Positions 108 through 21,854 of a DNA stretch of 24,334 nucleotides are shown here, piece by piece. The DNA comes from a virus. A model generated the notes under the pieces. It searched no databases. It was given only the letters and a program-made list of their open reading frames with translations, and had not been told where the DNA came from. The first letter of the stretch is position 1, and each line of letters begins with the position of its first letter. The DNA is taken from the IMG/VR virus record IMGVR_UViG_3300033143_002852, positions 1 through 24,334 of that record. One strand, 5' to 3'. Made by a program: the position numbers and the translations under genes.

Positions 108-142
108 TATAGGGAAGGAAAAGGGGATTAACCCCCCCTATA
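108..142 (-). other. Nested hairpin in the leader between promoter copy and the left-edge gene
   Basis: The outer arms 108-114 (TATAGGG) and 136-142 (CCCTATA) pair perfectly. Inside, 123-126 (GGGG) pairs with 132-135 (CCCC) around a five-base loop, with an eight-base bulge on one side. On the minus-strand RNA the inner stem is followed by UUUUCC. It lies about 20-50 nt downstream of the predicted start from the 184-200 promoter and ends 17 nt before the ATG at 91. It could terminate read-through from the connector gene, attenuate the next gene or protect its mRNA. Confidence 0.6.
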
Positions 143-183: not shown

Positions 184-200
184 TTTATTTATATCAGTAT
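184..200 (-). promoter_or_regulatory. Repeated TATA-type promoter, copy 1
   Basis: The minus strand reads ATACTGATATAAATAAA, with the TATA-like TATAAATA at 186-193. It shares ACTGATATAAATAA with copies at 3710, 4864 and 14164. Transcription would begin near 160-168 and run into the left-edge gene after a leader of about 70 nt that contains the nested hairpin. It begins just past the connector stop codon, outside any supported coding frame. Confidence 0.65.
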
Positions 201-848
201 CTAAACTACTATGATTTCAGTTCGATTATGAAGAACTTTATTGATTCTTGCGTTCATTCTTCCTATTCTATCATTGTAAGAAAGTCTAGTTGGATCGCCT
301 GTTTCATTCAACATATTAGACCTATCATCTGCTTCTATGAACTGAATCGCGGCCAGCATAGCAGTTGCTTGCTGGATGTCCTTTGGAACAGCGGTTTCAC
401 CGTATCGATAAGTTAGTCTTATTGCGTTTTCTCGCCAAAAAGGATGCCACTTCCTTACGTATAGAACCCCGCGTTCACTATCAAGCCAGTAGTCTTCTGC
501 TCTTCCTTCTGTCTTATCTGCTACCCAATCTATATACTCTTTTCCGTTCCAGATTTCTATCTTATCCCCTGAATCTGTGTCGAAAGTCTTGATTCTTCTA
601 TGCCTTAGATAAACAGGGAGTCCATCTGTGTAGTGGTAGCGATAGTAGTGATTCACTCTTGGAAAAGAATAGAATTCATTCGTTACTATCTTGTTTCTCC
701 AAGCGTGCTGAGTCCTATGGTCTACTGTATCCTGTGCTTCAGCAATTGCTTCAGCTACATCATCATCAGTAGGCAAAGTAGAACCAGCGAATAAGAAATC
801 TACCTGAAGGATTCTCTTAACATCTGCGGACCCTGCATATAATGACAT
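201..848 (-). CDS. Head-tail connector / head completion protein (HK97 gp6-like)
   Basis: The 215-residue protein has the features of a gp6-type connector, which forms a ring below the portal. Its N-terminal part is helical (SADVKRI, then DDDVAEAIAEAQDTVDHRT). A beta-rich middle follows, and then the family-like stretch LTYRYGETAVPKDIQQATAM with a closing helix. The length is at the upper end for the family because of an insertion rich in Tyr, Trp and charged residues at about 60-140. A strong AGGTGA ribosome binding site lies 5 nt before the ATG. Its place after the capsid genes and before a probable neck or tail gene fits. The assignment rests on motif resemblance and gene order. Confidence 0.75.
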   Translation of the reverse strand: MSLYAGSADVKRILQVDFLFAGSTLPTDDDVAEAIAEAQDTVDHRTQHAWRNKIVTNEFYSFPRVNHYYRYHYTDGLPVYLRHRRIKTFDTDSGDKIEIWNGKEYIDWVADKTEGRAEDYWLDSERGVLYVRKWHPFWRENAIRLTYRYGETAVPKDIQQATAMLAAIQFIEADDRSNMLNETGDPTRLSYNDRIGRMNARINKVLHNRTEIIVV

Positions 849-870
849 TTTTTCACCTAAATTAAAGGAA

Positions 871-888
871 CTAAGGCAAAAGCCTTAG
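871..888 (-). terminator. Seven-base-pair hairpin over a stop codon, possible attenuator
   Basis: CTAAGGC at 871-877 and GCCTTAG at 882-888 form a perfect 7-bp stem with a four-base loop (UUUU in the minus-strand RNA). The stop codon of the 53-residue gene (885-887) lies in the stem, and TTCCTTTAATTT follows. It could be a weak terminator or an RNA-processing boundary between the capsid genes and the connector. Confidence 0.5.
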
Positions 889-1046
889 ACTTCCATGTGT
901 ATAAAATATACTGAGCCGTTGTTTGTATACTGAACTATCTGGTCTCCGCTTTTAAAAGCAAATCCAGCTAATGATGCAGTTATAGCAGCTGTTCCAGCAC
1001 TTCCTGTATTGATGGGAAAAGGCCCACGAATAGAGGCTGAAACCAT
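885..1046 (-). CDS. Small virion-associated protein, 53 residues
   Basis: ATG at 1046 directly follows the stop of the preceding gene (TAAATGG). The product begins MVSASIRGPFPINTGSAGTA and is rich in Ala, Gly, Ser and Thr with beta-prone strands, resembling shortened versions of the 91- and 105-residue products of this cluster. No family was recognised. Capsid decoration or a head-surface role is inferred from context and composition. The stop codon lies in a 7-bp hairpin. Confidence 0.7.
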   Translation of the reverse strand: MVSASIRGPFPINTGSAGTAAITASLAGFAFKSGDQIVQYTNNGSVYFIHMEV

Positions 1047-1322
1047 TTAACCCCGCCCCCATGCGAACCATTGCCCAGATTCTCCATTCAATGTAACAAT
1101 CGTTACAGCACTTCCACTTACTGGAAAAGTCTCGTTAACTGCTGCAGCAGTTGCACCAGCAGAAGCACTTCCAGCTTGAAGCATCAATCCATCGCAAACT
1201 TTTAGTCCTGTATCAATATCCCCTCCTGTGCCTCCAGCGGTACTGGTATAAGTTCCATAAGTTTGGTTAGTGTCACCTGCAACATTCTTTACTTTTCTTG
1301 TCATTACATCTGTAAATGTCAT
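1047..1322 (-). CDS. Possible capsid decoration or fibre protein, 91 residues
   Basis: This is a small, Gly/Ala/Thr-rich, beta-prone protein. The stretch GTYTSTAGGTGGDIDTGLKV is followed by VNETFPVSGSAVTIVTL and a C-terminal GQWFAWGRG. The pattern of short strands ending in an aromatic Gly-rich tail is common in small proteins encoded next to major capsid genes, which suggests a head-decoration role. A strong GGAGGAGGAT ribosome binding site precedes the ATG. It resembles the 105-residue product at 1709-2026, including the GTY(T/S) start and the Trp-containing C-terminal strand. The function is inferred. Confidence 0.7.
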   Translation of the reverse strand: MTFTDVMTRKVKNVAGDTNQTYGTYTSTAGGTGGDIDTGLKVCDGLMLQAGSASAGATAAAVNETFPVSGSAVTIVTLNGESGQWFAWGRG

Positions 1323-1323
1323 A

Positions 1324-1701
1324 TTATCCTCCTCCTACATATTCTGTAAGTAATTTAGATTCTGATCTTGTAATCTTTCTGTCTAGTTTATATCCTTGTT
1401 CTAAGTGATCCACCAGATTCTTCTTGTTAATATACAAGTCTGAAATCTTCTTGACGCTTTTAGCAAGCAATCCTAATGCCTTCAATTCGTCCTTAAAGAT
1501 TTCTTCGTCTGGTTTAGGTGGAGGTGCTACTTTGGTAAAAAGTTTTACTTCCTTAAACCTCTTGTTGCCTTTAAAAAAATCAATGTCGTCACTGTTGTCT
1601 ACCTTAAAAGGAATCCCAATGTTAATAACATAAAGAAATCCACTGGGGCCTTTGTAAGAAGCGAGTCTCGCTGCTTGTGTTAAAAATAAAAATTTAGCCA
1701 T
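1324..1701 (-). CDS. Small head/neck-region protein of unknown function, 125 residues
   Basis: The N-terminal half (KGPSGFLYVINIGIPFKVDN, then DDIDFFKGNKRFKEV) resembles the short beta module with an Asp-x2-x-Phe-Phe...Arg-Phe pattern seen in small phage proteins near the head-tail junction. The C-terminal half is Lys-rich and helical and ends in Gly-Gly-Gly. It has a clear AGGTGA ribosome binding site and sits between two decoration-like genes. No family is assigned. A virion component is the likely role from location alone. Confidence 0.65.
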   Translation of the reverse strand: MAKFLFLTQAARLASYKGPSGFLYVINIGIPFKVDNSDDIDFFKGNKRFKEVKLFTKVAPPPKPDEEIFKDELKALGLLAKSVKKISDLYINKKNLVDHLEQGYKLDRKITRSESKLLTEYVGGG

Positions 1702-1708
1702 TTTTCAC

Positions 1709-2026
1709 CTATATGGCTAGTTTAACAATAGCCCACCAGTCACCTACTTCAACGCCAGTATCAATAAGTGTTAGTCCTATTGATCCAGCTTTTACAGTAG
1801 ATTTACCATCAACATTTGATTTATTCAGTGGTATTGTAGCACTTCCTCCTGTAGGTGCACCAACCCATGAAGTAACACCTATTCCATGAGCTATAATTGC
1901 ACTTCCGCCTGTAATAATATCTGCTGTTCCAGCACTTGCACTGTATGTTCCAGAAACTAAACCGATATTACCTCTGACAATTGAACTTTCACCAGTGGCG
2001 CCCGTTGTTGTGTTTGAAAATCCCAT
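1709..2026 (-). CDS. Possible capsid decoration protein, 105 residues
   Basis: It is encoded directly after the major capsid gene, with ribosome binding site GAGGTGAAGA overlapping the capsid stop codon, which suggests coupled translation. The protein is Gly/Ser/Thr/Ile-rich with alternating hydrophobic strands (SGTYSASAGTADIITGGSAI) and a C-terminal VGDWWAIVKLAI. It resembles the 91-residue product at 1047-1322. Position and composition suggest a head-decoration protein, but no signature motif proves it. Confidence 0.7.
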   Translation of the reverse strand: MGFSNTTTGATGESSIVRGNIGLVSGTYSASAGTADIITGGSAIIAHGIGVTSWVGAPTGGSATIPLNKSNVDGKSTVKAGSIGLTLIDTGVEVGDWWAIVKLAI

Positions 2027-2034
2027 TCTTCACC

Positions 2035-3165
2035 TCACTTCAAATCCCTTATTGACCCTTGGGCCGCCAGGAATGTGCAGATTAATTCTCCTGCTGTAAA
2101 ATACATTCCTTGAGTTCCTAGCCTGTTGATTGCAAAAGGATCTGGGTTCGTTGCACTCATTCCACTCTCGAAATACAATGTCGGATACAGTAAGGCAATG
2201 AATAACCTAGGTACGCCTGTTTCCTCGTTAGTTGTCGTGTCAAGCAAGTAAATCCTGCTGATTGTATCTGCCGCAACAGCTTGTGATGCAAACAAAGGAA
2301 CACCATATACTAAAGCTACTCGCATTCCAACAGCATGACCTTCATCAGTTTCTACTCCGTTAAGTCCGATTCTTACCAGTTCGTCTCTCTTCAAGACTCC
2401 AGGATACCTTATTTGATTTTCATATAATCCGAAAATTCTCCACTTAGTATCATTTCCTGTAAGAATTACATTAGTTCTAGCTCCTGCATTCTCAAGCAAG
2501 GAAAGCGTGTCTCGAATTAAGTCGTCTGATACAAATCGATCTGTTCCTGAGTTATGGTCGACTACTGCATCTGCCCAAGAATTTGAGCTTCTATCGATTC
2601 CGTAAATGTCCTCATCTCCAGTTGTCCAGCCAATTGCCGCTTGATAAGCAGTACTTGCTGTTACTCTATCAATAGATTCGAAGTTACTTCCTGCTAGAGT
2701 ATCTCCATTTACGCAAAGTTGCTCGTTGATTCTCTTAGCGTGTAGTGTTGCAAAGTATCCTCGTAGAAATTCCATGTCACCAATTGAGTCGTCTCCTTTC
2801 TTTACTCTTCCTTCGTGGATGTAAGACACATCAAAAGTATGCACCACTTGTTTTGGAAAAGCTTCGATCTCTGCGAAAGTTGGCTTGATAGTCTCTGGGA
2901 TAGTTGCGTTCTCTGATACTCCACCACCTGCTGTACTTCCTGCGTCAGCTGTGATTGCTCTCCATCCTGAGTGATCCCAAGGCCTCTTAGGAACTAATGC
3001 GAATACATTGGCTTCGTTATTCAGTTGACTGAAAGCGAAAGCTCCGAAAACTGTGTTATGTACTCCAGTAGTAGATGTGATTACTGGTTGATTTATCTTC
3101 GCAACCATGTGTGGCCCATAGTATTTCTCAAGAAGTTGTCCGATTGTTACTAGTCTTTCTACCAT
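2035..3165 (-). CDS. Major capsid protein (HK97 fold)
   Basis: At 376 residues it has the usual length and the position directly after protease/scaffold. The N-terminal arm (about 1-40) leads into a region with an extended loop followed by FPKQVVHTFDVSYIHEGRV, as in HK97-type E-loops. The middle contains RFVSDDLIRDTLSLLENAGA and NVILTGNDTKWRIFGL, which fits the alpha/beta axial domain; a GMRVALVYGVPLFASQAV strand motif lies before the C-terminus. The fold assignment is by pattern and context, since capsid proteins of this class share little sequence. A GAGG ribosome binding site lies within the end of the protease gene. It begins 2 nt after the protease stop, so expression is coupled to the scaffold transcript. 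Confidence 0.85.
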   Translation of the reverse strand: MVERLVTIGQLLEKYYGPHMVAKINQPVITSTTGVHNTVFGAFAFSQLNNEANVFALVPKRPWDHSGWRAITADAGSTAGGGVSENATIPETIKPTFAEIEAFPKQVVHTFDVSYIHEGRVKKGDDSIGDMEFLRGYFATLHAKRINEQLCVNGDTLAGSNFESIDRVTASTAYQAAIGWTTGDEDIYGIDRSSNSWADAVVDHNSGTDRFVSDDLIRDTLSLLENAGARTNVILTGNDTKWRIFGLYENQIRYPGVLKRDELVRIGLNGVETDEGHAVGMRVALVYGVPLFASQAVAADTISRIYLLDTTTNEETGVPRLFIALLYPTLYFESGMSATNPDPFAINRLGTQGMYFTAGELICTFLAAQGSIRDLK

Positions 3166-3166
3166 T

Positions 3167-3670
3167 TTAAACAGCCTCTTTTTGGAAATCTGCCCATGCC
3201 TTATTTACTTCCATGTAATTAAGTCTCTGCTTTCCAGAAGCTAAGTCCATAGAAAGCTTGGCAAAGTCCTTATTTTTCTTTATTTCCTTTACATCTCCTG
3301 CGAAAGGAAGTGGTGTACTTGCTTTAGCGACTGCTCTATTTTCAATTTTGCCTAGTCTCTTTAGCACTTCACTCTTAAAAGCGTCTTTTTCATTGGATTC
3401 TTCAGGAGAGGGTGCCTCTGGAGCAGGTGCGTCTGTTTCACCTTCAATATCACTTGCAGCCTCTTCTTTTTTAGTCTCATCCTCTTCTTCTTTCTTTTCC
3501 TCTGGCTTTTTCTCTTCTTCGTTCTGTTTTTTCTTATCTTCTTCCTCTGGCTTCTCTTCCTCCTCTTCCTTAGGAGGAACGTCTTGCTTTTTCATAGCTT
3601 CGAAATCTGCTTTAAGACCTTTAACGGTCTCAGTTAGGTCAGAAATCGCCTTAATTATGTCTTTTGACAT
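3167..3670 (-). CDS. Nested scaffold protein (internal start), 167 residues
   Basis: Within the protease frame, the ATG at 3670 is preceded by GGAAGGTGAT, a near-perfect anti-16S match 3 nt before the start. A copy of the repeated promoter lies at 3710-3727, giving a predicted leader of about 20 nt. The product starts MSKDIIKAISDLTETVKGL, has a long acidic/basic Glu-Lys stretch and ends with a helical segment (ASGKQRLNYMEVNKAWADF). Phage scaffolds are commonly made this way, as in lambda C/Nu3, to be in excess of the protease. A separate promoter as well as an internal ribosome binding site is unusual. Confidence 0.8.
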   Translation of the reverse strand: MSKDIIKAISDLTETVKGLKADFEAMKKQDVPPKEEEEEKPEEEDKKKQNEEEKKPEEKKEEEDETKKEEAASDIEGETDAPAPEAPSPEESNEKDAFKSEVLKRLGKIENRAVAKASTPLPFAGDVKEIKKNKDFAKLSMDLASGKQRLNYMEVNKAWADFQKEAV

Positions 3671-4435
3671 TTTATCACCTTCCTTGGTTGTATTTTCTAT
3701 ATTAGACTCCTTATTTATATCAGTTTCTTTATACCATCCTTTATTTATCGCTGTATTACATACTGCAAACGCTGCTTGCTCTTTAGTTTGACTTGGATTA
3801 TCTGGCTTAAAGTTTGGATCATTTACTAATTCAGATACACAAGAATCTAACGCTTCAGGTTTTTTTACCTGAGACTTAGCTACAACTGAGTAAGCCTCGG
3901 TAAGCGCCATCGGATTACATGGATCGCTTACACTAGCTGTTTCAAATTGCTGGAATCCTTCTAACACTTTCACTTGCTCTCCTGTTACTTCGTCTTTTCC
4001 AAGAGAAACATGGGTGTTAAATCCTCCAACAGATGCGCCGACCCTTTCACCGCTTTGGATCTCTTCCCATATCTTATCATCTAGTTGATTATGGTCATAT
4101 GTCTTGTCTAAGTGAAGGACTCCTTTTGATTTAGTCTCTGGATGCTCTAGCACTTTGTAAGCTAAAGTCCTGCCAATAATTCGATTAGTATGCCCGTCTG
4201 AAATAGGCCCTCCTCTTTCAAGTAAAGTATCCTGTTGGTTTGCGATGTCGTCAATAGGAATAAGTTCTCCTGCGTTGTCTTTCATCTCAACACTGGCCCA
4301 AGTTACTGAAATCCGTTCTTCTGCGTTCTCTACTGCTTTCTTGATTTTTTCTAAGTTGTCTGTACTCTCGAAAAGCTTGAGGATTTCTTCTGTTGAAATT
4401 GATCCTTTCTTTTTTGTGCAAAATAATACTTTCAT
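3167..4435 (-). CDS. Capsid maturation protease fused to scaffold
   Basis: The 422-residue protein has a serine-protease-like N-terminal domain. His82 lies in ISDGHTNRIIGRTL and Ser135 in RVGASVGGF, the expected His/Ser pair for XkdF- or HK97-type prohead proteases. A linker module follows at about 196-235, with the pattern DSCVSEL...DNPSQTKEQAAFAVC seen in phage protease and head proteins. From residue 256 the protein is a Glu/Lys-rich, probably coiled scaffold ending in a helical capsid-binding tail. An in-frame ATG at 3670 with its own ribosome binding site and promoter marks a nested scaffold gene. The start at 4435 directly follows the gp10-like stop. The catalytic residues are inferred from motif placement. 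Confidence 0.85.
   Translation of the reverse strand: MKVLFCTKKKGSISTEEILKLFESTDNLEKIKKAVENAEERISVTWASVEMKDNAGELIPIDDIANQQDTLLERGGPISDGHTNRIIGRTLAYKVLEHPETKSKGVLHLDKTYDHNQLDDKIWEEIQSGERVGASVGGFNTHVSLGKDEVTGEQVKVLEGFQQFETASVSDPCNPMALTEAYSVVAKSQVKKPEALDSCVSELVNDPNFKPDNPSQTKEQAAFAVCNTAINKGWYKETDINKESNIENTTKEGDKMSKDIIKAISDLTETVKGLKADFEAMKKQDVPPKEEEEEKPEEEDKKKQNEEEKKPEEKKEEEDETKKEEAASDIEGETDAPAPEAPSPEESNEKDAFKSEVLKRLGKIENRAVAKASTPLPFAGDVKEIKKNKDFAKLSMDLASGKQRLNYMEVNKAWADFQKEAV
3710..3727 (-). promoter_or_regulatory. Repeated TATA-type promoter, copy 2 (inside the protease gene)
   Basis: The minus strand reads GAAACTGATATAAATAAG, with TATA-like TATAAATA at 3712-3719. Transcription is predicted near 3687-3690, about 20 nt before the nested scaffold ATG and upstream of its ribosome binding site. 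In the protease frame the same bases encode ETDINK (residues 237-242). It would let scaffold, capsid protein and the decoration genes be transcribed without the protease. Confidence 0.7.
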
Positions 4436-4437
4436 AG

Positions 4438-4845
4438 TTACACCCCGAAGTTAAATTCTGCTTTAGCTTGTTCTACTGCTGGTTGGATATACGGACTAGG
4501 TAACATTCCTCTTTGTTTTATTGCCATAGCAATAGCATAAGAAATACTTTTAATTTCACTTTCTTTAGAAATACCCAGTTTTCGCCTTACCCATTTGTGT
4601 AGTACATTAGGTGGAGGCATCGTACCAGGATGACGGCCAAACTCAATAATGTCAGCGTATGGCGCAGCATAAACAATTTCCTTATTTAAAAACTTTCGAT
4701 TTACATTCCCTGACTTAAGCAAGTTTCCTGTGTCTATTTTTTGGTCATCTATCAGTTTTTGCTGAGATAATAAAAAAACTCTGTCAATGAAATCATCCAT
4801 AAATTTATTTACTTCATTCAAAGCTATCTCAGCTGAATCTACCAT
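4438..4845 (-). CDS. HK97 gp10-like neck / tail-completion protein
   Basis: The 135-residue protein shows the gp10-type pattern. An N-terminal helix (NEVNKFMDDFIDRVFLLSQQ) leads to TGNLLKSGNV, the hallmark IVYAAPYADIIEFGRHPGTM, then VLHKWVRRKLG and a C-terminal MLPSPYIQPAVEQAKAEF. Such proteins sit at the head-tail interface. The ATG lies about 25 nt downstream of the centre of a TATA-like box and has no ribosome binding site, so its message is predicted to be leaderless. Its position before the protease, rather than after the connector, is not the common order. Confidence 0.85.
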   Translation of the reverse strand: MVDSAEIALNEVNKFMDDFIDRVFLLSQQKLIDDQKIDTGNLLKSGNVNRKFLNKEIVYAAPYADIIEFGRHPGTMPPPNVLHKWVRRKLGISKESEIKSISYAIAMAIKQRGMLPSPYIQPAVEQAKAEFNFGV

Positions 4846-4863
4846 AAACTATCAATTAGAACC

Positions 4864-4881
4864 TTTATTTATATCAGTTTC
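4864..4881 (-). promoter_or_regulatory. Repeated TATA-type promoter, copy 3 (leaderless start)
   Basis: The minus strand reads GAAACTGATATAAATAAA, with TATA-like TATAAATA at 4866-4873 and 20 nt between it and the ATG at 4845. The predicted transcription start therefore coincides with the start codon of the gp10-like gene. The element begins at the base after the stop codon of the preceding gene. Confidence 0.75.
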
Positions 4882-5064
4882 TTAAATAGCGGTAAGGATA
4901 TTCCTTAATCTGTCGTGATTAAGCTTTCCAGTAATCAAATGTCTCACTTCTCGATTAGCATGAACATGAGCAATGTAATCGAAATCTCTCATTATGTTAT
5001 GCTGTAAGATACTTGAAGAATACTCGAACATTACTATTCCTCTGTTTAAAATTTTTGAATTCAT
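4882..5064 (-). CDS. Unknown protein, 60 residues
   Basis: The ATG at 5064 is chosen over an upstream GTG at 5073 because GAGTGAT lies a suitable distance before it. The product (MNSKILNRGIVMFEYSSSIL, then a His/Arg-rich IAHVHANREVRHLITGKLNH) is basic and probably helical. It ends directly before promoter copy 3. No family was recognised; its place among head genes suggests a virion or assembly role, without direct support. Confidence 0.55.
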   Translation of the reverse strand: MNSKILNRGIVMFEYSSSILQHNIMRDFDYIAHVHANREVRHLITGKLNHDRLRNILTAI

Positions 5065-5076
5065 ATCTATCACTCT

Positions 5077-5250
5077 CTAGTGCCTAAATCTTACTGGCGA
5101 CCTAACAAAATACTGTAGTTCTTTATGTGCTGGAATCTGCGGGCCTTTGATTCTTCTTCCGCTTCCACCAGTCGTCGGCCCAGTTCCACCCATTCCTTTT
5201 GTTATAATAAGATGGTCTGGCCCGAGACCCTTTGTAATCAATCTGTTCAT
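5077..5250 (-). CDS. Small virion-region protein, 57 residues
   Basis: ATG at 5250 overlaps the preceding stop by 4 nt (ATGA). The product begins MNRLITKGLGPDHLIITKGM, continues with a Gly/Thr-rich loop and ends in a basic FVRSPVRFRH. The repeat-like ITKGLGPDHLIITKGMG module is seen in short proteins encoded in phage structural operons; their role is not known to me. Translational coupling to the 137-residue gene upstream is likely. Confidence 0.65.
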   Translation of the reverse strand: MNRLITKGLGPDHLIITKGMGGTGPTTGGSGRRIKGPQIPAHKELQYFVRSPVRFRH

Positions 5251-5660
5251 ACTGCTTCCCGTTTGAATACAGATGACTCGTTAGGATTACCGCTTTTGTC
5301 TGTCAGATTAAATGTAAACAAAGCAGTAGTTCCGTCATCATCGTAAATAATCAGTTGATTGTTTAGAATCTGCCAGTTGTTTTTCTCTACTTTTAATATC
5401 CTGTTCGTGTCTGAAGCTATCTGATTGCTTCCTACAGAGTACCTTTCTGCGACAGGTTGAGAAGCTCCACCGTCTGCACGATACACGTAATTAGTTGAGT
5501 CTACTATAGTTGAGAAATCATACTTGTAAAATCCTAATGAAACTTCTGTCATACTAGCTCCTGTGACTATTGCTGTACCATCTTCATCTGCAATATCAAT
5601 AGTAGGAGTAAGCCCTGTTTTAGGCGAACCATTCTCAGTAAAGAAAGCAAAAATTATCAT
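5247..5660 (-). CDS. Possible receptor-binding or baseplate-type accessory protein, 137 residues
   Basis: Start ATG at 5660 overlaps the previous stop by 4 nt, which favours it over a GTG 12 nt upstream. The N-terminal half (FFTENGSPKTGLTPTIDIAD, then SLGFYKYDF) is the Ig-like strand pattern found in phage virion proteins with a K(T)GLTPTI(D) motif. The second half (SDTNRILKVEKNNWQILNNQ, then LIIYDDDGTTALFTFNLTD) is a common module that follows it. This predicts a virion surface protein, possibly linking a fibre. The assignment is by motif memory. Confidence 0.65.
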   Translation of the reverse strand: MIIFAFFTENGSPKTGLTPTIDIADEDGTAIVTGASMTEVSLGFYKYDFSTIVDSTNYVYRADGGASQPVAERYSVGSNQIASDTNRILKVEKNNWQILNNQLIIYDDDGTTALFTFNLTDKSGNPNESSVFKREAV

Positions 5661-5971
5661 ATTGGAACACACCTCTCATAATTGCAGTTCCACTGTTGAC
5701 TAGACGTAGTTGTTTCAGGTATCTTTACTAGAACTCCCTTTTTGCACCAGTAATTTTCTGTGTTAGCAGAATTATACACCTCAAAGCATACTTGGAATCT
5801 TTCACCTGATTTAGTAACACACTTGTAGTATCCTTCGTGAACACCTAAATTTACATATTCCCATCCAGCTCTGCATCCAGTTTTAGTTCCACTGTCTTGT
5901 ACGTAATAAGTTATTCCAGAAGATAATAAGATCACTAAAGTTATAATCCCGCCTATTAGTTTTTTTTCCAT
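5657..5971 (-). CDS. Membrane-anchored, Cys-rich small protein, 104 residues
   Basis: An N-terminal hydrophobic segment (about 5-24, IGGIITLVILLSSGITYYV) after MEKK predicts a signal anchor. The rest contains six cysteines (near 33, 51, 62, 76, 95 and 100) in a small domain likely stabilised by disulfides outside the cell. It follows the Asp-box protein by 2 nt and overlaps the next gene by 4 nt. The function is unknown. Membrane topology and the neighbouring secreted proteins suggest a surface role such as superinfection exclusion or attachment, which is inference only. Confidence 0.7.
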   Translation of the reverse strand: MEKKLIGGIITLVILLSSGITYYVQDSGTKTGCRAGWEYVNLGVHEGYYKCVTKSGERFQVCFEVYNSANTENYWCKKGVLVKIPETTTSSQQWNCNYERCVPI

Positions 5972-5972
5972 G

Positions 5973-7742
5973 TTATTCTACCCTCATGAAACTATCAAAA
6001 AAATAACCATGACAATTAGTGACATCAAAGTTAAAGTCATTTGCCCAAATATCGTAGTAAGTAATAAAATCTCCTGCCCCTGTCATCCTAAAATCATATG
6101 GGCGGATGTCTCTTTTCCTGTCTGATCTGCAATTATCGCTGCATTGGACTACCCAATCGCTTTCGCATGGTGGAAAACAAGAGGGATGATAGATGCTTTG
6201 ATTGTCAAAAAATACATAAGAAGTTGAATTAGTCCATGTATATCTTAAAGTATCTGTCATTCTATTTGAACATGGATACCTTGAATCTTGAATAGAGGGA
6301 TAGTTACTGGCTGCTGCAAAATGTTCCCTTTTGTCCCATGTAGGTGATCTAAAGGATTTATTGGCATGGTAGATGTCAGAGAATGCATTTAAAGAGGTGG
6401 AATCTGAATATAAGATATGAATATCTTTTTGTGAACTTACTCCTATGTCTGGGTAAAAAGAGATAGTAGAATCAACTAATTGAGTACTGAAAGAAGTTAG
6501 ATCACTAGCTGAAAAATTGGCATGATATAATTGTGTAGCCAAGCCTGGAGCAGTAATATAACCTACATGAAACATATCGTCATTATCTACAGTAATTGTT
6601 GGCGCGTGCGCACTAGAAGGGATTCCAAACATTCCGATTACATCTTCATCAATAGAATGCCTAACCCAACCATCAATACTACAGAATACATCTAAATCTT
6701 TATCATCTGTGCCTAAAGCAACTATGCATACAGTATTCTTGCTGTCGACAGCTATATCACAAAAATCTGTATCATCACTAGCATTATTATTTATAATTAT
6801 TCTGTTCCAATCAGAACTATTAACGTACTGCAATGTTCCACCTCCTGAAGTATCTATAGCAGCAAAATGAAGCACGTCATTTTTGTCAGTGATTCCAGAA
6901 GGTAATTTCATAGTTGCTCCAATTGGAAAGACTGGACCCATTATAGTTCTTTGAACACTCCATGTTGTCCCATTGTCTGTGCTGTTTATTATTTGTATAA
7001 CACTAGGCAAAAAACTCTGTTGTTCATAATATATGTATAAATCATTATTTGAATTTGTTAACATACCATTTACGCCGAATGAAAATATCCCGCCCTGAAC
7101 TTCTTTTTTACTCCAAGTGACTCCCTTATCTGAAGAATTGCCATACCACAAGTCAGAACCAGAAGCTGTCCAGGATTCATGAAGTAATCCATCTGATGTC
7201 CTGACCATATTTTCATTGGGTGGATAAGCAGTAGCTAAAAGTCTTGCATTAGCATCTATGATTGACGAACCACTTCCAGTATAGATTGTAAAGTTCTTAC
7301 TTGTTTCTGGAAGGATTAGTCTTATCCTTAGAGGTAACTTATTTCTTGATGCGCTGCTGAATAATATATATCCATATCCTTCTGTCATGTTACACCAATG
7401 TTGGGGTATTCCATAATCTTCTAGGTATCCGTAATTTACAGATATATTTTGGGAATAATTAAAGCCTCCTTGAGCATCTTCGTTTTGATACATCAATTCA
7501 TCCACTCCTAATAAATTGCACAGTGCCATGTGCCATCTATAGTTTCCAGGAAGATCATTCTTAGCAGTAACATTTAATTCTAAGTAATAATCATCTATCT
7601 GATAGATGTCTGTGTTTAAATCTTCATCCTCTTGAGTATGTTCAAATTCCCATGCCACTACACCAAATTGGTCGATTGTATTAGCGACAGCAAAAGGGAT
7701 ACATAGTAAACTTATCATTATAAGATTAATTTTGGCATACAT
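5973..7742 (-). CDS. Secreted Asp-box (BNR/sialidase-like) beta-propeller protein
   Basis: ATG at 7742 is chosen because GGGGG lies just before it and a signal peptide follows at once (INLIMISLLCIPFAVA, likely cut after VAN). The 589-residue product carries Asp boxes (NSSDKGVTWS near 203-212 and NSTDNGTTWS near 255-264), typical of sialidase-like six-bladed propellers, plus other repeated blade motifs. The sialidase catalytic residues were not identified, so glycan binding is more likely than cleavage. The C-terminal part is Cys-rich (CFPPCESDWVVQCSDNC). N-x-S/T sequons are frequent. It overlaps the adhesin gene by 17 nt. The likely role is host-surface or glycan recognition. Confidence 0.75.
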   Translation of the reverse strand: MYAKINLIMISLLCIPFAVANTIDQFGVVAWEFEHTQEDEDLNTDIYQIDDYYLELNVTAKNDLPGNYRWHMALCNLLGVDELMYQNEDAQGGFNYSQNISVNYGYLEDYGIPQHWCNMTEGYGYILFSSASRNKLPLRIRLILPETSKNFTIYTGSGSSIIDANARLLATAYPPNENMVRTSDGLLHESWTASGSDLWYGNSSDKGVTWSKKEVQGGIFSFGVNGMLTNSNNDLYIYYEQQSFLPSVIQIINSTDNGTTWSVQRTIMGPVFPIGATMKLPSGITDKNDVLHFAAIDTSGGGTLQYVNSSDWNRIIINNNASDDTDFCDIAVDSKNTVCIVALGTDDKDLDVFCSIDGWVRHSIDEDVIGMFGIPSSAHAPTITVDNDDMFHVGYITAPGLATQLYHANFSASDLTSFSTQLVDSTISFYPDIGVSSQKDIHILYSDSTSLNAFSDIYHANKSFRSPTWDKREHFAAASNYPSIQDSRYPCSNRMTDTLRYTWTNSTSYVFFDNQSIYHPSCFPPCESDWVVQCSDNCRSDRKRDIRPYDFRMTGAGDFITYYDIWANDFNFDVTNCHGYFFDSFMRVE

Positions 7743-10700
7743 GGATCCCCCCATTTCCACCTGTACCAAATATCATATTGATGCAAGTGCCATTGTATTG
7801 GATTTGTGGAGCACTTGTCCAGTCACTAGAGTTAAACTTGATAGAATTTTCTACTGTTATGTTTGCCAAAGCATTGACATGACCATTTACATTCAAAGTG
7901 TTTGAAATATTAAGTGTTGGAACATCGATGTTTATTTCTGTTAGGGCCTTTATGTCTAAATTACCGCTTGAAGGGCTGGACATATTAATTTTTTTGTCTC
8001 TAACGAATATGTTCTCTCCAGTATTCATCAATATGTCATCACTAAATTGAAAGTAATCTTGTCCTGTATCACCATAGAAACCAAAAAGACCATTAGTGCC
8101 AGTAGTTTGCATAGAAATAGCCATTATAGTGCTAGGACTTATCATTGAAAATACAATAGCGTTAAAGTTAATAACAATAGCCTCAATATCTAATGTAGAT
8201 GCTGCTGATGAATATATCTTTTGGCCACTACTTCTAAACTGAATTTCTCTATTTGTTGTCATAAGTATATTTGAGGGTTGCATATCTGTATCATTTTTTA
8301 AGAAAAAATAATCAGTGCAAATTACAGTATCGCCTAATTCAGTAATCGCTGAATTTGCAGGACAGGCTGTGGGATAGTTTACATGAGTCCAGTTCTGAGT
8401 GATATGACTTACTCCCGTTCCAGTAAAATTGTAGCTTCCAAAATCAGCCACTTGGTCAGCATCATTAAATGTATGCCCTGCTACATTCCACTCTAAATTA
8501 TCTAACTCATCATGATTAGTGATAGGTGGAGCAGAAGAGCTTCCGCCGCTAGCTGTTACTTCTCCCCTTATATCAAAATGAAAATGCCCATTTAACTGTT
8601 GGAAATTTGAGCTTGTAGGTGCTTTTTTTATTATGGTTCTTGCAACTGGTACAAATGCCGTCTTTAAATTGTTATTATTTGGAAAGAAATTCATTACATC
8701 GAATCCATCTGCCTTAGCTGCAGATAATGTCAAATACTCCGTAGATGGTTCGTTTTGAACTACAGCAACTAACCTGCTAGTGTTTTGAGCAATAGGCACT
8801 ACTCCCCAAATCACGTTAAAGAACTTGTTTACTCCGATTGCTCCACCGTCTCCGTAAGTCGTAAAAATAGTATTGTCTGTAAAGTTAGTAAACTCTCCAG
8901 TTGAGTTGACAAAATAAAAATCCTCAGTATTAGTTATATTGTTCAAATAAGTCATTTCATCTATTCTTATCTTTACCGTTCCATCGGTAATATTTATCTC
9001 AGTAGCAGAAGAGAAAATAGCTAAACCTCTTACATAAATTGCCCCTTGGTCATCGAATCTGTCATGGACTAAATCTACAAACTCATCATTACTAGATGCG
9101 TGAACATCAAATAAATAAATATTATCAGTCGTATCCCCAACATATACTTTAGCAACATCTGCATGAGGAGCACTCGGGTCACTCCCTGCAATAACAAGTG
9201 AAGGATTTCCTGCTGTTTGATAACTTACATAGTTAAAAGTCGGACTGATTGTTGTCCCTGTGTTTAACGTGATTGAATCACTGTTCTCAGTTTGAATAGT
9301 TTCGTTTCCATCTATGTTAATGACAAGTGTGTCTTTTTCAGTATCGTTTATTACTAAATCTGTTCCTTCAACCGTTGCATTAACTCGATTAAATAAGATA
9401 TTCTTGTGCAAGTCATCTAAGACAGTAAGTGTCCTAGTTAAGAAACGCCAATCTCCATCTGAATTAGTAACCCAGACTTCATCTACTACCTGCATATCAT
9501 CTGAGACAAGCAAGTCTGCGCCAGAAGTAGTTGTGTTGCAGTCTATTTTAAGTGTCTCATTGATTCTATCCATATATCTTCCACAATCAGTTCTATTCTG
9601 TGTATTACTGAAAAAATCTGCATCTTCGTTTACTATCATAAAACTTCGCATTATGTAAGAGGCTTGAGTTCCTCCTCCTGGCTGGACAAGAAAGTGAGGT
9701 AACATAACACCACTAGGGCCTTTCATAGCTATACCGAATGTTTTATTCGCTGAGATTACTGAAGAAGCGTTGTAAGTTCTTAGTTGAAAATCTTGATTCT
9801 CACCGAATAATATATCTCCGCCTTCTCCATCTTGCCCTAAAACAATTCCTTGTTTTAATTGAGTCCCTTCCAACCTGTTTATTTGTATTCCAGTAGTTCT
9901 ATTACCTTTAAGAGTATCAATAATTATACCTGTTTCTTCTCTATTAGCCCTATGCCAACTATCAGAGGAAATATCAGTTAAGTAATATCCTATAAATGTA
10001 TCATTAATAAATCCTTTATCATTGGAACTACCGTCATTAATTGTGTTAAAATTAAAATAAAAAAGATTTTTTAGAGTAACATCTGCATTAGGTTGATTAG
10101 GTCTACTAAAAGAAGTATCAATACCATAAATGGTATTAGTAATGTTTTTACCTATTCCTTCTGGGGAAGATTGAAATAAAAAACTTGCAGATTGATCTAT
10201 TAATTTAGTAGTAGAACTAGCACCGAAATGAAAAACAGGATGATCTTCAATATTCCAAATACCTGCTCGTAGAATTATATTTTCGATTGCGGTAGTACTA
10301 CCATATCCTGTACCAGTAGTACCTGATGGGCGATGCTTAGTATCCAAATCCAAACTTTTTAAATCATTTCCTGTATTATTAACATTGAACCAAAATCTTA
10401 CTCTATCAACGTCATTGTTTAGAGTAGATACCCGATTATCCCTAACAAATAAACCTTTCAAATCAACATCTTTTTCAGGATAAACTGACAGTTCACCGAA
10501 TATATCTACATCACCACCACTCATATTGAAAACACTAGCAGGAATCTGCATTATTGCCTCAGCATTACTGCCGTTTCTGAATAAGTTAAATCCTTGTGTA
10601 ATATTTTTAACAGAAATATTAAATGCATCCTGAAAAAAATGAAGCGTCCAATTGTTATTGCCTTCTGAGGTTCTATTTACAGTAAAATTCATAATAAATG

Positions 10701-11226
10701 TTCCACCTACCTGGTGAATTCCAGTGTTATCTCTAGTGCAATTCCATACAATCTCTCCGCTTATGTTCTTGCTCTTTAGTATTAGATTTTTTCCACATCT
10801 GGTTATGTTTCTGTAAGCATTGAAACCATCATCAGAAAAACTTGAAAAAGATATATTGCCTTTAACATCTAAAATATTCCCAATAGTAGTGATATTATTA
10901 ACTGTGTTTACTTTAAATGGGTATACTGTTGGAAATCTTTCTTTTGAAACAAAAAAGATATCATTCAAAAAGTAACTTTCAAGACTTAAAAATTCCAATA
11001 CACCTAGTGGTCCCACATGGAGTTGCGTAGTTTCTGTTGAAAGATTGTTAAATAAATAAGCAGCTGGGCCAAGATTGAGCCTATAATCTTGATTTAGATG
11101 AATATTAGAATTATTCATAGTTAGATCTCCATGTATAGTAAGATTGTCGAAGATTTCCTGACCTGGAATTGCATAAACTATTCCGATTAACAACAAGAAA
11201 ATCAAGCTTATTATTAGTTTTTTCAT
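7726..11226 (-). CDS. Large secreted adhesin-like / fibre protein, 1166 residues
   Basis: The ATG at 11226 is preferred over an upstream in-frame start because it begins a clear signal peptide (KKLIISLIFLLLIGIVYAIP). The rest is beta-rich, with few charged clusters and about 40 N-x-S/T sequons counted by eye. A stretch near residue 930 (NHDELDNLEWNVAGHTF) resembles the repeat module of phage tail fibres, and the C-terminus (FNSSDWTSAPQIQYNGTCIN) has a Cys pair. It is probably a host-binding fibre or surface adhesin. A signal peptide on a tailed-virus fibre is unexpected, because virions assemble in the cytoplasm. Identity beyond adhesin-like is not claimed. Confidence 0.75.
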   Translation of the reverse strand: MKKLIISLIFLLLIGIVYAIPGQEIFDNLTIHGDLTMNNSNIHLNQDYRLNLGPAAYLFNNLSTETTQLHVGPLGVLEFLSLESYFLNDIFFVSKERFPTVYPFKVNTVNNITTIGNILDVKGNISFSSFSDDGFNAYRNITRCGKNLILKSKNISGEIVWNCTRDNTGIHQVGGTFIMNFTVNRTSEGNNNWTLHFFQDAFNISVKNITQGFNLFRNGSNAEAIMQIPASVFNMSGGDVDIFGELSVYPEKDVDLKGLFVRDNRVSTLNNDVDRVRFWFNVNNTGNDLKSLDLDTKHRPSGTTGTGYGSTTAIENIILRAGIWNIEDHPVFHFGASSTTKLIDQSASFLFQSSPEGIGKNITNTIYGIDTSFSRPNQPNADVTLKNLFYFNFNTINDGSSNDKGFINDTFIGYYLTDISSDSWHRANREETGIIIDTLKGNRTTGIQINRLEGTQLKQGIVLGQDGEGGDILFGENQDFQLRTYNASSVISANKTFGIAMKGPSGVMLPHFLVQPGGGTQASYIMRSFMIVNEDADFFSNTQNRTDCGRYMDRINETLKIDCNTTTSGADLLVSDDMQVVDEVWVTNSDGDWRFLTRTLTVLDDLHKNILFNRVNATVEGTDLVINDTEKDTLVINIDGNETIQTENSDSITLNTGTTISPTFNYVSYQTAGNPSLVIAGSDPSAPHADVAKVYVGDTTDNIYLFDVHASSNDEFVDLVHDRFDDQGAIYVRGLAIFSSATEINITDGTVKIRIDEMTYLNNITNTEDFYFVNSTGEFTNFTDNTIFTTYGDGGAIGVNKFFNVIWGVVPIAQNTSRLVAVVQNEPSTEYLTLSAAKADGFDVMNFFPNNNNLKTAFVPVARTIIKKAPTSSNFQQLNGHFHFDIRGEVTASGGSSSAPPITNHDELDNLEWNVAGHTFNDADQVADFGSYNFTGTGVSHITQNWTHVNYPTACPANSAITELGDTVICTDYFFLKNDTDMQPSNILMTTNREIQFRSSGQKIYSSAASTLDIEAIVINFNAIVFSMISPSTIMAISMQTTGTNGLFGFYGDTGQDYFQFSDDILMNTGENIFVRDKKINMSSPSSGNLDIKALTEINIDVPTLNISNTLNVNGHVNALANITVENSIKFNSSDWTSAPQIQYNGTCINMIFGTGGNGGIHVCQN

Positions 11227-11227
11227 G

Positions 11228-11392
11228 TCATCTCCACTCGCTTCTTTTAACATTCTTTACCCATAACTGCAATTTCTGAGTTGCGGAATCAAACACAAAG
11301 TAAGTGTTCCCATCTGAACTCATGATTAACTTAACATCATCCCCAAGTATCGGAAGCACTCCACTTCTAGTAAGCAGTACATTTCCCATCAT
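11228..11392 (-). CDS. Small protein of the fibre operon, 54 residues
   Basis: ATG at 11392 (a second ATG follows at once) overlaps the previous stop by 4 nt, and the stop lies 1 nt before the adhesin ATG. The product starts MMGNVLLTRSGVLPILGDDV and contains SDGNTYFVFDSATQKLQLWV, a compact beta pattern. This pattern is common in short fibre-associated domains. No family is assigned. Coupled expression with the Ig-like and adhesin genes suggests a virion surface role. Confidence 0.65.
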   Translation of the reverse strand: MMGNVLLTRSGVLPILGDDVKLIMSSDGNTYFVFDSATQKLQLWVKNVKRSEWR

Positions 11393-11691
11393 TCCACAAT
11401 CCAGTCTAGTTTAGTAGATAATCTTCCTGTAATCGGCTTCATGGCAGTAACCTTCGGCGTTAGCTTAAACGTTATCTGGCTTATGCTCTTAGGTGGAATC
11501 GCTTCAATTGACTCAGTTAAAAAAATATTCTCCCCTTCTAAAGTCATGTCTACATTTAGCCTAAAAGGAAGGTTATTCCTTACAAACACCGTTTTGTAAG
11601 TAGTAGTCCCTGCTTCGACTACACCGAAATTAATCTTATCAAGTACGGGCTGATTTTGCTGTAAGTCAAAAAAGAGAGAGATTTCATCCAT
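11389..11691 (-). CDS. Small Ig-like domain protein, 100 residues
   Basis: The sequence has the strand pattern of an ASPM/HYDIN-like Ig domain: LDKINFGVVEAGTTTYKTVF, then RNNLPFRLNVDM, and IPPKSISQITFKLTPKV. Such single Ig domains often occur in virion proteins and bind partner proteins or cell surfaces. It begins inside the last codons of the portal-MuF gene and overlaps the next gene by 4 nt, so it is part of the same transcript. Confidence 0.7.
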   Translation of the reverse strand: MDEISLFFDLQQNQPVLDKINFGVVEAGTTTYKTVFVRNNLPFRLNVDMTLEGENIFLTESIEAIPPKSISQITFKLTPKVTAMKPITGRLSTKLDWIVE

Positions 11692-13372
11692 GTATATCCT
11701 CTTCCAGTTGATTAAGGACTTTCTCTTTCTTCTTGAGGATGCTTACTGTCTTTTCTTTTATTAGAATGTCTAGCTCTTTTTCTGCTAACTCTGACTTTAC
11801 TTCAATTTCTTTTTCTTCTATTTCTCTCTGTTTTTTCAGTAAGTCTTGCCTTTTCTTTTGTATCCTAGTAGTAGGTAGCCTTACGAAAGTGTGCCTTGAG
11901 TTGTAATGTGAAACGGGGAAGTCTTCGTTTACTGTCCAATCTGGAAAATCCTTGGAAGCTTCGTCTTTTACTATACCAACATAATCAGACCAGACTACTC
12001 CGCTTTTAGTTCGAGCTTTAATCCTTTTGCTTGTGTTAGTTGTTCGGTTGTCATTCGGGCCTATGTGCTTAAAAAGTAAGTTGTCGAAGTCCTCTTCTTT
12101 CTGATAACTCATTTTTCTTGCAGCAGATGCTACCTTAGAAGTTTCGGTTCTTGCGATTGTCTCTGCCCTGAAATCCGAGACATCTACTATATCTCTTATC
12201 TTTCCTGTGATAGCTAGAGCAGTAAGCCCAGCTGGATTTCTAAACGCATTTTGGATCACTAAGTTAAGTTTGTTTGTTATGTCTGCGCTTAAATTTTTGT
12301 AAGCATCTGAAAGAACCTGTTGGTTAGCTAGAACATTTAAAGCGTTCTGATCTCTTACGTCAAACAATACATTAACTCCTAAGTCTTTGCCTATCTTGTC
12401 CATCTCGGTTGTGTATGTTTTCTTAAACAGTCTTTGCGCGGATGCCTTTAACTCACTTTGTAAGTCGAGGTTAACCTTAGCTATTATCTTTTGAAGTTCT
12501 GCTTCTTTAGGTCTGCGCTTGAATTTCTTTAGAAACTTCTGGATTTTGAGTTTTAGCGTATCAGCAAGCTTAGTGAAAGCTGGCCTTGATTTAGCTTGTT
12601 TTACTGCTTCTTGAAAATCAAACGCCTCAGGTTCACCTGCCGTATCAATTGTTTGGGGGGTGGTTGATGACAACATAGAATCATCCTGGGGCGCTTGAGT
12701 AGGAATAAGATCACCTTCTTTGATAAATACCTCGCTTGTATCTTCAATGTATTTTGCTTCTAGTCCCATTGAAACGGCATTCCTTCCATTTTCTAGAGTA
12801 AGCCTTTGCCTCTCTAGCTTTGCCATCTCATCTTGCTCTTCGCTTGGATTAAGAGTAAGCACGTATCCTTTTACGCCCATGGCCTTTAATAACTTAGGCA
12901 AGTAAAATTTATTGTAAATCTCTTGACCGTACTCTACTGCTCTATTAGTTACAGTGACTTGCATTCCTTCATTGTTTAACCCGCCGCCTTGAGATACGTC
13001 TCCTTGAAATAACGGCTCTACTCCATAGACTGCGCCTATTTGTCTCCTGTACTCATTTCTCATCTCTGTGTGCTGTAATTCATCCAGACTTTTCATAAAG
13101 TCAATGAACTCAACGAAATTCCTTCCGCTTGAACTATCTGGAACGCCCATTATTATAGGAAGATGAGGATTCTCTTCTGCTCTCTGCTTTGCCTCATCCC
13201 ACATCTTATTAAGCGTATCACGATTAGAAGTCTTGAAAAATAATCCTGCTTTCGGAGGTCTCTGGCCGTCATATAACTCCATTATGTACTTGTCCATGAA
13301 AAGCAATGTACTTGTCCATGAAAAGCAATGTTCTAGTTTTTTGCCATGTCGTAACGATAGGAGAGAAACCAC
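11684..13372 (-). CDS. Portal C-terminal part with MuF-like domain (downstream of frameshift)
   Basis: The frame downstream of the duplication encodes the rest of the portal (MELYDGQRPPKAGLFFKTSN, QIGAVYGVEPLFQGDVSQGG, LNNEGMQVTVTNRAVEYGQE), a linker, and a MuF/SPP1 gp7-like domain near the end (RAETIARTETSKVASAARKM, then FPVSHYNSRHTFVRLP). The extreme C-terminus is a Lys/Glu coiled coil. The residues before TLLFMDKYI in this frame are out-of-frame translation of portal DNA, so the apparent start at 13372 is probably not real; MDKYI at 13297 is the first plausible internal start. Removing one 22-bp repeat joins it to the upstream part as an 810-residue portal-MuF fusion. Confidence 0.8.
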   Translation of the reverse strand: MVSLLSLRHGKKLEHCFSWTSTLLFMDKYIMELYDGQRPPKAGLFFKTSNRDTLNKMWDEAKQRAEENPHLPIIMGVPDSSSGRNFVEFIDFMKSLDELQHTEMRNEYRRQIGAVYGVEPLFQGDVSQGGGLNNEGMQVTVTNRAVEYGQEIYNKFYLPKLLKAMGVKGYVLTLNPSEEQDEMAKLERQRLTLENGRNAVSMGLEAKYIEDTSEVFIKEGDLIPTQAPQDDSMLSSTTPQTIDTAGEPEAFDFQEAVKQAKSRPAFTKLADTLKLKIQKFLKKFKRRPKEAELQKIIAKVNLDLQSELKASAQRLFKKTYTTEMDKIGKDLGVNVLFDVRDQNALNVLANQQVLSDAYKNLSADITNKLNLVIQNAFRNPAGLTALAITGKIRDIVDVSDFRAETIARTETSKVASAARKMSYQKEEDFDNLLFKHIGPNDNRTTNTSKRIKARTKSGVVWSDYVGIVKDEASKDFPDWTVNEDFPVSHYNSRHTFVRLPTTRIQKKRQDLLKKQREIEEKEIEVKSELAEKELDILIKEKTVSILKKKEKVLNQLEEDIHG

Positions 13373-14138
13373 GCCTTTTGCTAGGTCGATATTTAGATTT
13401 GAAAACTACTTCGTCTTTAAAGTAGTAGATAGTCGTCCCGCCGTAAACTGAGAAGAAATGCGCTCTGTATGTTTTATTGCCACACTCAGGACATTCTAAT
13501 TTGTCTTTATTTAAAACCGATCTATGCACTACACAAGTAGTTAGCTCTTCGTTAGTATCTGTGTATCCTGGCCTGTCAAATCTATTTTGAATCAAACCCA
13601 TGAACTTTGGATCACCTCGGATAACCTGACTGAACTTTCTACTGTTTATATCTCCTTTAGCATCTAGAAAGTAATCGAATATAAATATCATAAACCCGTC
13701 ATCCATGATACTGAAGTCGTCTTCTATCTCCATCAACACTTCAGTTGCGCTTTGGCTGTTCTCGTTTATATTCTCTAGTTTTTCCAATATCTCTTCTCTA
13801 GTTAATCCGACTGCTTCGGTCTCCTCTTCACTGCTAGTATCGTCTAGTGATTCCTTTGCTTCAGAGAGATCGTAGCCGTTTCTAAATAACTCTCTTCTTA
13901 GCGCATTATGAACTACTGTCTGAACATCTGAGTTATAAGCAAGCTCGTATAGAATTTGATTCCCGTATGGATACCTCGGGTAGACCATTGAACCATGGCT
14001 AAAGTGATAACCACTAAATGGCCTAAGCACACCATCCATCGCTATCTTTAGCTTTTTTGTTACTGCCTGAAGTTTAGTTCTAAGAGAAATCGGATTAATC
14101 GCACTTACGCTATTCTTGAGAACATTCCAGGCTTTCAT
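13269..14138 (-). CDS. Portal N-terminal part (truncated by a 22-bp duplication)
   Basis: The 289-residue frame encodes the portal N-terminus: VVHNALRRELFRNGYDLSEA, DDFSIMDDGFMIFIFDYFLD and RKFSQVIRGDPKFMGLIQNR. A Cys pair occurs in LECPECGNKTYRAHFF, possibly metal-binding. The frame ends TRTLLFMDKYI followed by 11 residues that do not belong. The same TLLFMDKYI reappears in the downstream frame, showing that a tandem duplication shifted the frame. The ATG at 14138 lies about 28 nt below promoter copy 4, with a weak AGGTAGT before it. As written the portal is not one continuous protein. Confidence 0.8.
   Translation of the reverse strand: MKAWNVLKNSVSAINPISLRTKLQAVTKKLKIAMDGVLRPFSGYHFSHGSMVYPRYPYGNQILYELAYNSDVQTVVHNALRRELFRNGYDLSEAKESLDDTSSEEETEAVGLTREEILEKLENINENSQSATEVLMEIEDDFSIMDDGFMIFIFDYFLDAKGDINSRKFSQVIRGDPKFMGLIQNRFDRPGYTDTNEELTTCVVHRSVLNKDKLECPECGNKTYRAHFFSVYGGTTIYYFKDEVVFKSKYRPSKRRGFSPIVTTWQKTRTLLFMDKYIAFHGQVHNGVI
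13286..13329. repeat. 22-bp perfect tandem duplication that shifts the portal frame
   Basis: The unit GTACTTGTCCATGAAAAGCA plus AT occurs twice without a mismatch (13286-13307 and 13308-13329); period-22 identity extends to 13284-13331. Because 22 is not a multiple of three, it moves the portal from one minus-strand frame to another. Deleting one copy gives a continuous 811-codon gene. Confidence 0.95.
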
Positions 14139-14151
14139 TGGTGCACTACCT

Positions 14152-14268
14152 TTAATTATCCCTTTTATTTATATCAGTTTCCAAAAATTCATCCAGTTTG
14201 GACATTTTAATATCAAATAAATTATACTTTTTATCAATTCTGACTAGTTCAGTGTTTATGTATCTCAA
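14152..14268 (-). CDS. Tiny gene between terminase and portal, 38 residues (TTG start)
   Basis: A TTG at 14268 overlaps the TerL stop (TTGA) and opens a 38-residue frame with a natural-looking composition: RYINTELVRIDKKYNLFDIK, then MSKLDEFLETDINKRDN. GGGTG lies upstream of the TTG. An internal ATG at 14205 would give 17 residues. Its last codons contain promoter copy 4. The frame overlap and charge pattern argue for coding, but its shortness keeps confidence low. Confidence 0.4.
   Translation of the reverse strand: MRYINTELVRIDKKYNLFDIKMSKLDEFLETDINKRDN
14164..14181 (-). promoter_or_regulatory. Repeated TATA-type promoter, copy 4 (portal and virion genes)
   Basis: The minus strand reads GAAACTGATATAAATAAA, with TATA-like TATAAATA at 14166-14173, 27 nt before the portal ATG at 14138. 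The transcript would have a leader of only a few bases. It separates the terminase-containing operon from the virion genes, and this class of element is absent to its right. Confidence 0.75.
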
Positions 14269-21416: not shown

Positions 21417-21738
21417 AAAGCAAAAACAAACGCCTACACCCACAACCTAAATCCATTGGAAACGATGTGGAAGGTGATCCACTTAGAATCAATATGTAGT
21501 ACCTTCTTAATGCTCCCTTGTGGACACCCGAGACACAGTGCCAATCATTGACGGTTTGAACCATCTATGGTGAGGTGTTTACCCCTTTAACCTGCCCCCC
21601 ATTAGTGCGTGCGATTTAGGATCTCTCCCTTCGTTGAACAGCCGAAGCCGTCGGGTTCTCAGCAAAGCTTACAGTGAACTGATCCCCCTTTACCAGGAAC
21701 ACTAAGAAGTTGTTTTTGCCCTTGAACTAGCTATAAAA

Positions 21739-21835: not shown

Positions 21836-21854
21836 TTTCTATTCTTATTCTCTA

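Follow-up and report, generated by a model that had tools for sequence, protein, structure and literature searches.

Why does one short sequence recur, letter for letter, four times among the virion genes of this virus, and what might it do for the genes that follow it? The window analysed here is a 24.3-kb viral contig (24,334 nt, IMG/VR record IMGVR_UViG_3300033143_002852) in which the 14-mer ACTGATATAAATAA has exactly four exact matches, all on the minus strand (185-198, 3711-3724, 4865-4878 and 14165-14178). It is the sole 14-mer with more than two occurrences in the window, and no 14-mer exceeded two copies in shuffled or Markov versions of it. Every gene in the window is encoded on the minus strand, so the four copies likewise stand on the coding strand; exact matches are absent from the plus strand and from the accessory half. 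Alignment of the copies extends the element to GA(A/T)ACTGATATAAATAA(A/G)N6TAAT, beyond which the flanks are unrelated. A sequence-only reading had described four copies of an extended promoter element preceding the left-edge, scaffold, gp10-like and portal genes. The four copies were borne out, with ranges that had been off by 1-3 bases only, and all four gene assignments hold. That reading had seen no copy in the accessory half, which is true of the exact element; one weak look-alike, AACTTATTTAAATAAAGTAGAGAAT, is found there at 21857-21870, with a score that is equalled in 0-7% of random sequences.

Two small features adjoin this look-alike. Downstream of it, about 300 nt (21565-21870) are without a convincing gene and could possibly encode a non-coding RNA; no Rfam or tRNA match was found in 21565-21870, nor any tRNA or Rfam family elsewhere in the window. 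A tiny CxxC zinc-ribbon reading frame (21875-21985) ends in the look-alike and matches the A2L zinc ribbon below threshold (E=0.005). At the opposite edge of the window, the near-identical contig L080/L116 places the beginning of the left-edge gene at about window position 91, and the 2.4 kb past the window edge that it supplies hold no further copy of the element.

The putative promoters and the genes around them are as follows, with transcription starts predicted from leaderless spacing.

14165..14181, minus strand: promoter P (BRE-spacer-TATA, GAAACTGATATAAATAA), in front of the portal gene; start predicted at ~14145
13269..14138, minus strand: portal gene, N-terminal part, putatively served by promoter P (phrog_18178, E=1.2e-16)
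4865..4881, minus strand: promoter N, in front of the neck (gp10-like) gene; start predicted on or beside the ATG at 4845, giving a leaderless mRNA
4438..4845, minus strand: neck/gp10-like gene, putatively served by promoter N (phrog_5, tail completion or Neck1, E=2.6e-4)
3167..4435, minus strand: head maturation protease-scaffold gene (phrog_3017, E=5.6e-5; homologues in relatives)
3711..3727, minus strand: promoter S, within the protease-scaffold gene and ahead of the in-frame ATG of the scaffold at 3670; start predicted at ~3691
3167..3670, minus strand: nested scaffold reading frame (167 aa), putatively served by promoter S
2035..3165, minus strand: major capsid protein, downstream of promoter S (phrog_24667, E=1.4e-57)
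201..848, minus strand: head-tail adaptor gene, ending at promoter T (phrog_442, E=8e-10; phrog_17057, E=2.9e-43)
185..201, minus strand: promoter T (GATACTGATATAAATAA), directly 3' of the head-tail adaptor stop and before the left-edge tail gene (ATG ~91, from L080); predicted start ~165

Several of these genes carry features of their own. The portal gene contains an exact 22-nt tandem duplication (13284-13327) that shifts the frame and leaves two overlapping reading frames; portal homologues in relatives are single frames, and the duplication is either a real frameshift or an assembly artefact. A comparable change, a tandem duplication of 17 nt, affects the neck gene of L116/L080 (L116 668-701); the window is free of it. 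A G-rich hairpin followed by T's (122-139, minus strand) separates promoter T from the start of the left-edge gene, the whole leader folding at -18.4 kcal/mol. At the same place, L122 has a strong hairpin (-31.4), L139 and L144 have weaker ones, and L119 and L124 have none; leader control or termination are possible roles.

The window has recognisable genes for terminase, portal, protease, neck and adaptor, and its capsid protein is 35% identical to the major capsid protein of HCTV-1. Among 50,697 phage records, the capsid matched only haloviruses of the HCTV-1/HVTV-1 type, at 35%, and, at 29%, a Methanofastidiosa virus. A three-member capsid alignment used as query retrieved 39 related loci from the viral collection, where the terminase as bait retrieved no relatives. 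Most of the related sequences are incomplete fragments. One relative with 74% capsid identity to the window, L119, is also a contig of a Candidatus Pacearchaeota metagenome-assembled genome (MAG), and the hosts of this virus group are likely to be DPANN archaea, Pacearchaeota, on the basis of the binning of this one related contig. A further contig, L163, was binned as a candidate division TA06 bacterium and encodes a capsid protein 41% identical to the virus group; it is probably misbinned.

Among the relatives, the place of the element is kept and its letters change. Six of them, with major-capsid identities of 66-78%, have retained promoters at the genes that carry them in the window, which brings the comparison to seven viruses and 28 sites at homologous places, conserved in both position and orientation. 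These places are before the portal gene (L117, L118, L119, L121 and L124), before the neck gene (L118, L119, L121, L122 and L124), inside the protease-scaffold gene (7/7 viruses) and just after the adaptor gene (L118, L119 on MAG contig C53, L121, L122 and L124); some viruses have an additional site before the adaptor gene. The relatives are without the window's exact element, each having its own version at the same genes.

L119 version: ACTGTTATAAATAA
L121 version: A(G/A)TCATATAAATAA
L124 version: AATGTTATAAA(T/C)(A/G)A
L117 version: AATGATATAAATAA
L118 version: CAATCTTATAAATAT

The copies of L122 are far less uniform (0.72 within-virus identity). Distances from element to ATG are conserved at 18-21 nt for neck, 18-22 nt for adaptor, 18-28 nt for portal and 40-52 nt for scaffold, and the scaffold site is followed in 7/7 viruses by an in-frame ATG 41-53 nt after the octamer TATAAATA, with 156-182 residues remaining. 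All copies fall within the virion module in the window (4/4) and in the two 38-kb contigs L121 (5/5) and L124 (5/5), in whose accessory regions the class is absent save for a few weak look-alikes. Strong promoter-like sites are scarce in these accessory regions, and since the best of them are spelt otherwise (AGAAAnnTTTATATA), each virus seems to have at least two promoter classes.

The spelling also links pieces of a single virus. With up to one mismatch, the L119 version occurs in only two contigs of the Pacearchaeota MAG, both viral; the second, C53, opens with the end of an adaptor gene and has the element directly after it, the expected next place. Another L119 relative, L266, has the L119 version only before portal and neck. 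Relatives farther removed (40-50% capsid identity) carry repeats with other TATA-containing spellings at some of the genes concerned.

L139: TTTATAAATTCTATT, four copies
L144: TTACATTTATAAAA-like, three copies in the virion block and one further copy
L128: TATGATGTTCTTTGTATTTAA-like, four copies

Judged across these viruses, the arrangement predates the spelling. The class is not universal, because the TATA-containing repeat of the Methanofastidiosa virus vir519 (L114) differs and marks mainly accessory genes. That repeat, CTTTATAAGGTACTGATCA, stands at 2308, 3341, 26581 and 28100, 11-24 nt before mostly accessory starts, and a weaker copy precedes the portal gene.

In an effort to identify the element independently of any virus consensus, a promoter motif was learned de novo upstream of the Pacearchaeota MAG's own genes. 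This host motif consists of an A-rich BRE, [A/C][A/G]AAA, then 2-3 free bases and a TATA resembling TTTATAAA; in most cases it starts 36 nt upstream of the ATG. When the model was applied to homologous virion-gene starts, its best site was in 18/18 cases a BRE-TATA element of the viral kind, lying 36-46 nt before the ATG as in the MAG's own promoters. Promoter P is the best host-model match at -44 from the portal ATG, and promoter N a match at -37 from the neck ATG. The viral AGAAA aligns with the host BRE, with one off-consensus base each in L118 and L124, and TATAAATAA starts about 28 nt before the neck ATG, in agreement with a TATA position of about -27. The window's elements score 7-9 bits under this model, which is fair and not exceptional; the model, though, is taken from a relative's host. 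Element-to-ATG spacing at neck and adaptor fits leaderless mRNAs of the kind inferred for the MAG; the portal leader would be a few bases long, and that of the scaffold in the window about 20 nt.

From sequence comparison, the four copies are very probably archaeal core promoters that divide the virion block into four units. The conserved homologous positions, the host-model match, the start-codon spacing and the near absence from accessory regions support a promoter class for virion genes, and this part of the sequence-only reading stands; the late timing that it assigned to the class is what the gene content suggests. Host TBP, TFB and RNA polymerase would start transcription about 20 nt downstream of each element, yielding leaderless or short-leader mRNAs for portal; for neck and protease; for scaffold, major capsid and following genes; and for tail genes. 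Internal promoter S would give the scaffold protein its own transcript. The idea of an added recognition sequence beside the TATA box fared less evenly. The element does have more fixed letters than a TATA box needs, but for the most part its GAAA is a BRE of the usual archaeal type. What is truly added, as far as the letters tell, is the short BRE-TATA spacer, spelt differently in each virus.

The statistics of this spacer bear directly on the reading that the core promoter doubles as the site of a virus-encoded regulator, either an activator or a repressor lifted late, which reads the bases between BRE and TATA, perhaps together with those 7-12 nt after the TATA box. Regulator and sites would have drifted together, and the regulator would add to promoter function. 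The 28 sites of the seven viruses were first located with virus consensus sequences, and the analysis was repeated without consensus. In the first analysis, the 8 nt upstream of TATAAATA had 88% identity among the sites of one virus, as against 60% across viruses (0/2000 label permutations; sequences within groups are related, and the permutation counts given here are strong indications and not exact probabilities). Positions +7 to +12 after TATAAATA were also virus-dependent (0.533 within against 0.341 between, 0/2000), as the regulator reading would have it. Same-gene sites across viruses were no more alike than different-gene sites. With the site choice unbiased, at 18 sites picked by the host model, spacer positions -31 to -28 were 93% identical within a virus and 52% between (0/5000), as compared to 0.78 and 0.67 for the BRE proper (79/5000). 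The spelling is near-constant among the virion copies of a virus and different between viruses, and it is not common to accessory promoters. Host promoters are nearly free at the spacer positions, and none of 78 (0/78) carries the viral spacer and TATA pattern NT[G/C][A/T]TATAAAT. From like patterns, the authors of the HF2 and SIRV2 studies infer virus-encoded factors (PMC8707807, PMC11065993).

The search for such a factor weighs on the other side. No TFIIB family protein, such as a viral TFB, was found in 15 virus records. The 64-aa winged-helix protein (20667-20861), which the sequence-only reading had put forward as a possible reader, finds no support: none of 17 related sequences, among them both 38-kb contigs, has a reading frame homologous to it at E<=1e-3, and it is thus lacking, as far as can be detected, in relatives that carry the promoter class. 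The sole shared DNA-binding protein (17724-18137, HTH_11; in the window, L117, L121 and L124) is encoded upstream of terminase and may be its small subunit; its model has an HTH and two long helices (pLDDT 68), a shape that would fit such a subunit, with a best PDB match no better than E=0.36. It stays a candidate for the regulator. Moreover, HF2 promoters are active without viral factors (PMC8707807). On balance, a regulator of this kind is a distinct possibility, short of being probable.

The HF2 observation, made in a heterologous host without viral proteins, fits with tuning to the host alone, in which each spelling is best for the TBP and TFB of the virus's own host and strong selection on virion expression keeps the copies alike. 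The BRE and TATA parts do match the host consensus. Set against this, the promoters of the probable host of L119 show no preference for the viral spacer, CTG at -31 to -29 (with TATAAAT, 0/78), within-virus identity in five viruses exceeds that in all 5000 random sets of host promoters, and other spellings are used by the accessory promoters of these viruses. We consider host tuning unlikely, though a serious alternative.

Near identity of copies within each virus could also come from recent duplication, recombinational homogenisation or a mobile repeat family. The flanks refute this, as they are unrelated between copies (positions -20 to -9 are 0.348 identical within viruses and 0.343 between, that is, without difference), and the copies keep to the same genes across viruses with capsids that are between one quarter and one third different. 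In the viral collection, exact longer elements are multi-copy only in the virus itself and in near-identical or closely related contigs. The 109 contigs with the window's 17-mer have mostly single, unrelated matches, and L062 has two element matches, both at contig ends. A common origin of this kind is improbable. Much the same goes, more strongly, for a role in coding or as an RNA element. One reading frame common to the four copies spells (E/D)TDINK, and the scaffold copy is truly translated, but copies N and T sit outside genes, immediately behind a stop codon or spanning one, and relatives encode different letters there while keeping the TATA and its distance from the start. The repeated-peptide reading was rejected because of these two copies; in relatives the peptide is not conserved at any of the four places, and we consider this reading highly improbable. 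Finally, although the phage T4 late -10 box is the same octamer as TATAAATA, a T4-type late promoter (bacterial host, gp55-type sigma factor, start 5-7 nt after TATAAATA) is extremely improbable, since the capsid relatives are archaeal viruses, one of them in an archaeal MAG, the 18-22 nt from element to leaderless ATG is the spacing of an archaeal TATA and not of a -10 box, and a BRE is present. A bacterial sigma-70 scan of the window gave 57 matches against 47.5 expected and does not bear on the question.

A spacer-reading factor is plausible, and we propose a specific form of it tentatively: a code word between BRE and TATA, proper to each virus, stands at all virion operons including the internal scaffold promoter and is read by a co-evolving viral or virus-modified factor. 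The shared spelling would let one regulator act on all copies. If this code-word reading is true, each virus would co-activate its particle genes in a manner distinct from its host's genes and from its own accessory genes. Firing of the promoters, late timing and control by one regulator through the shared spacer are what we infer for the infected cell.

Gene timing in archaeal viruses is poorly known, and for those of DPANN archaea we came across no paper on the subject. A virion promoter class that is readable from sequence, with exact predicted starts, makes late regulation testable, and its short virus-specific part offers a handle for finding the regulator. The spelling can also join contigs of one virus, as with C53 and L119, a link that the adaptor gene on C53 supports. 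The conserved internal scaffold promoter gives a clear prediction of how scaffold comes to exceed protease in amount.

Some of this has precedents. The nearest is halovirus HF2 (Haloferacalesvirus), with two C-rich 29-bp class II repeats found only in the late morphogenesis region; their promoter activity was demonstrated, with a TATA at about -26, and among related viruses their positions are kept and their sequence is almost invariant across the genus (PMC8707807). The window virus is likewise a tailed archaeal virus with near-identical repeats confined to the virion module at positions conserved in relatives. Unlike HF2, it and its relatives carry four or five copies each, of which one is intragenic, and at constant position the spelling changes between viruses (0.60 between viruses at -8 to -1, against 0.88 within) instead of staying nearly invariant. 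In SIRV2 and other Sulfolobales viruses, virus-specific sequences surround a similar BRE/TATA core of early genes, and the authors infer virus-specific regulators (PMC11065993). Here, too, a core is common to one virus's genes and the neighbouring sequence differs between viruses; the genes, however, are virion genes and not early anti-defence genes, and the variable part lies between BRE and TATA and does not flank the core. SIRV1 and SIRV2 promoters also have a GTC element downstream of the TATA, the same in both viruses, according to Kessler et al. 2004 as cited in PMC5569661. This resembles our element as an extra virus-specific sequence near the TATA box, but ours is mainly upstream of it and different in each virus. 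In phage lambda, the scaffold Nu3 is in frame with, and forms the C-terminal part of, the protease gene C, and is made by internal translation initiation on the same mRNA. The nested in-frame scaffold is alike here, with the difference that a conserved internal promoter precedes its start. Virion-specific repeated promoters (HF2) and virus-specific early promoters (Sulfolobus viruses) were thus known already; what sets the present case apart is the copy number, the promoter inside a gene, the spacer as the variable part, and its re-spelling virus by virus at constant positions.
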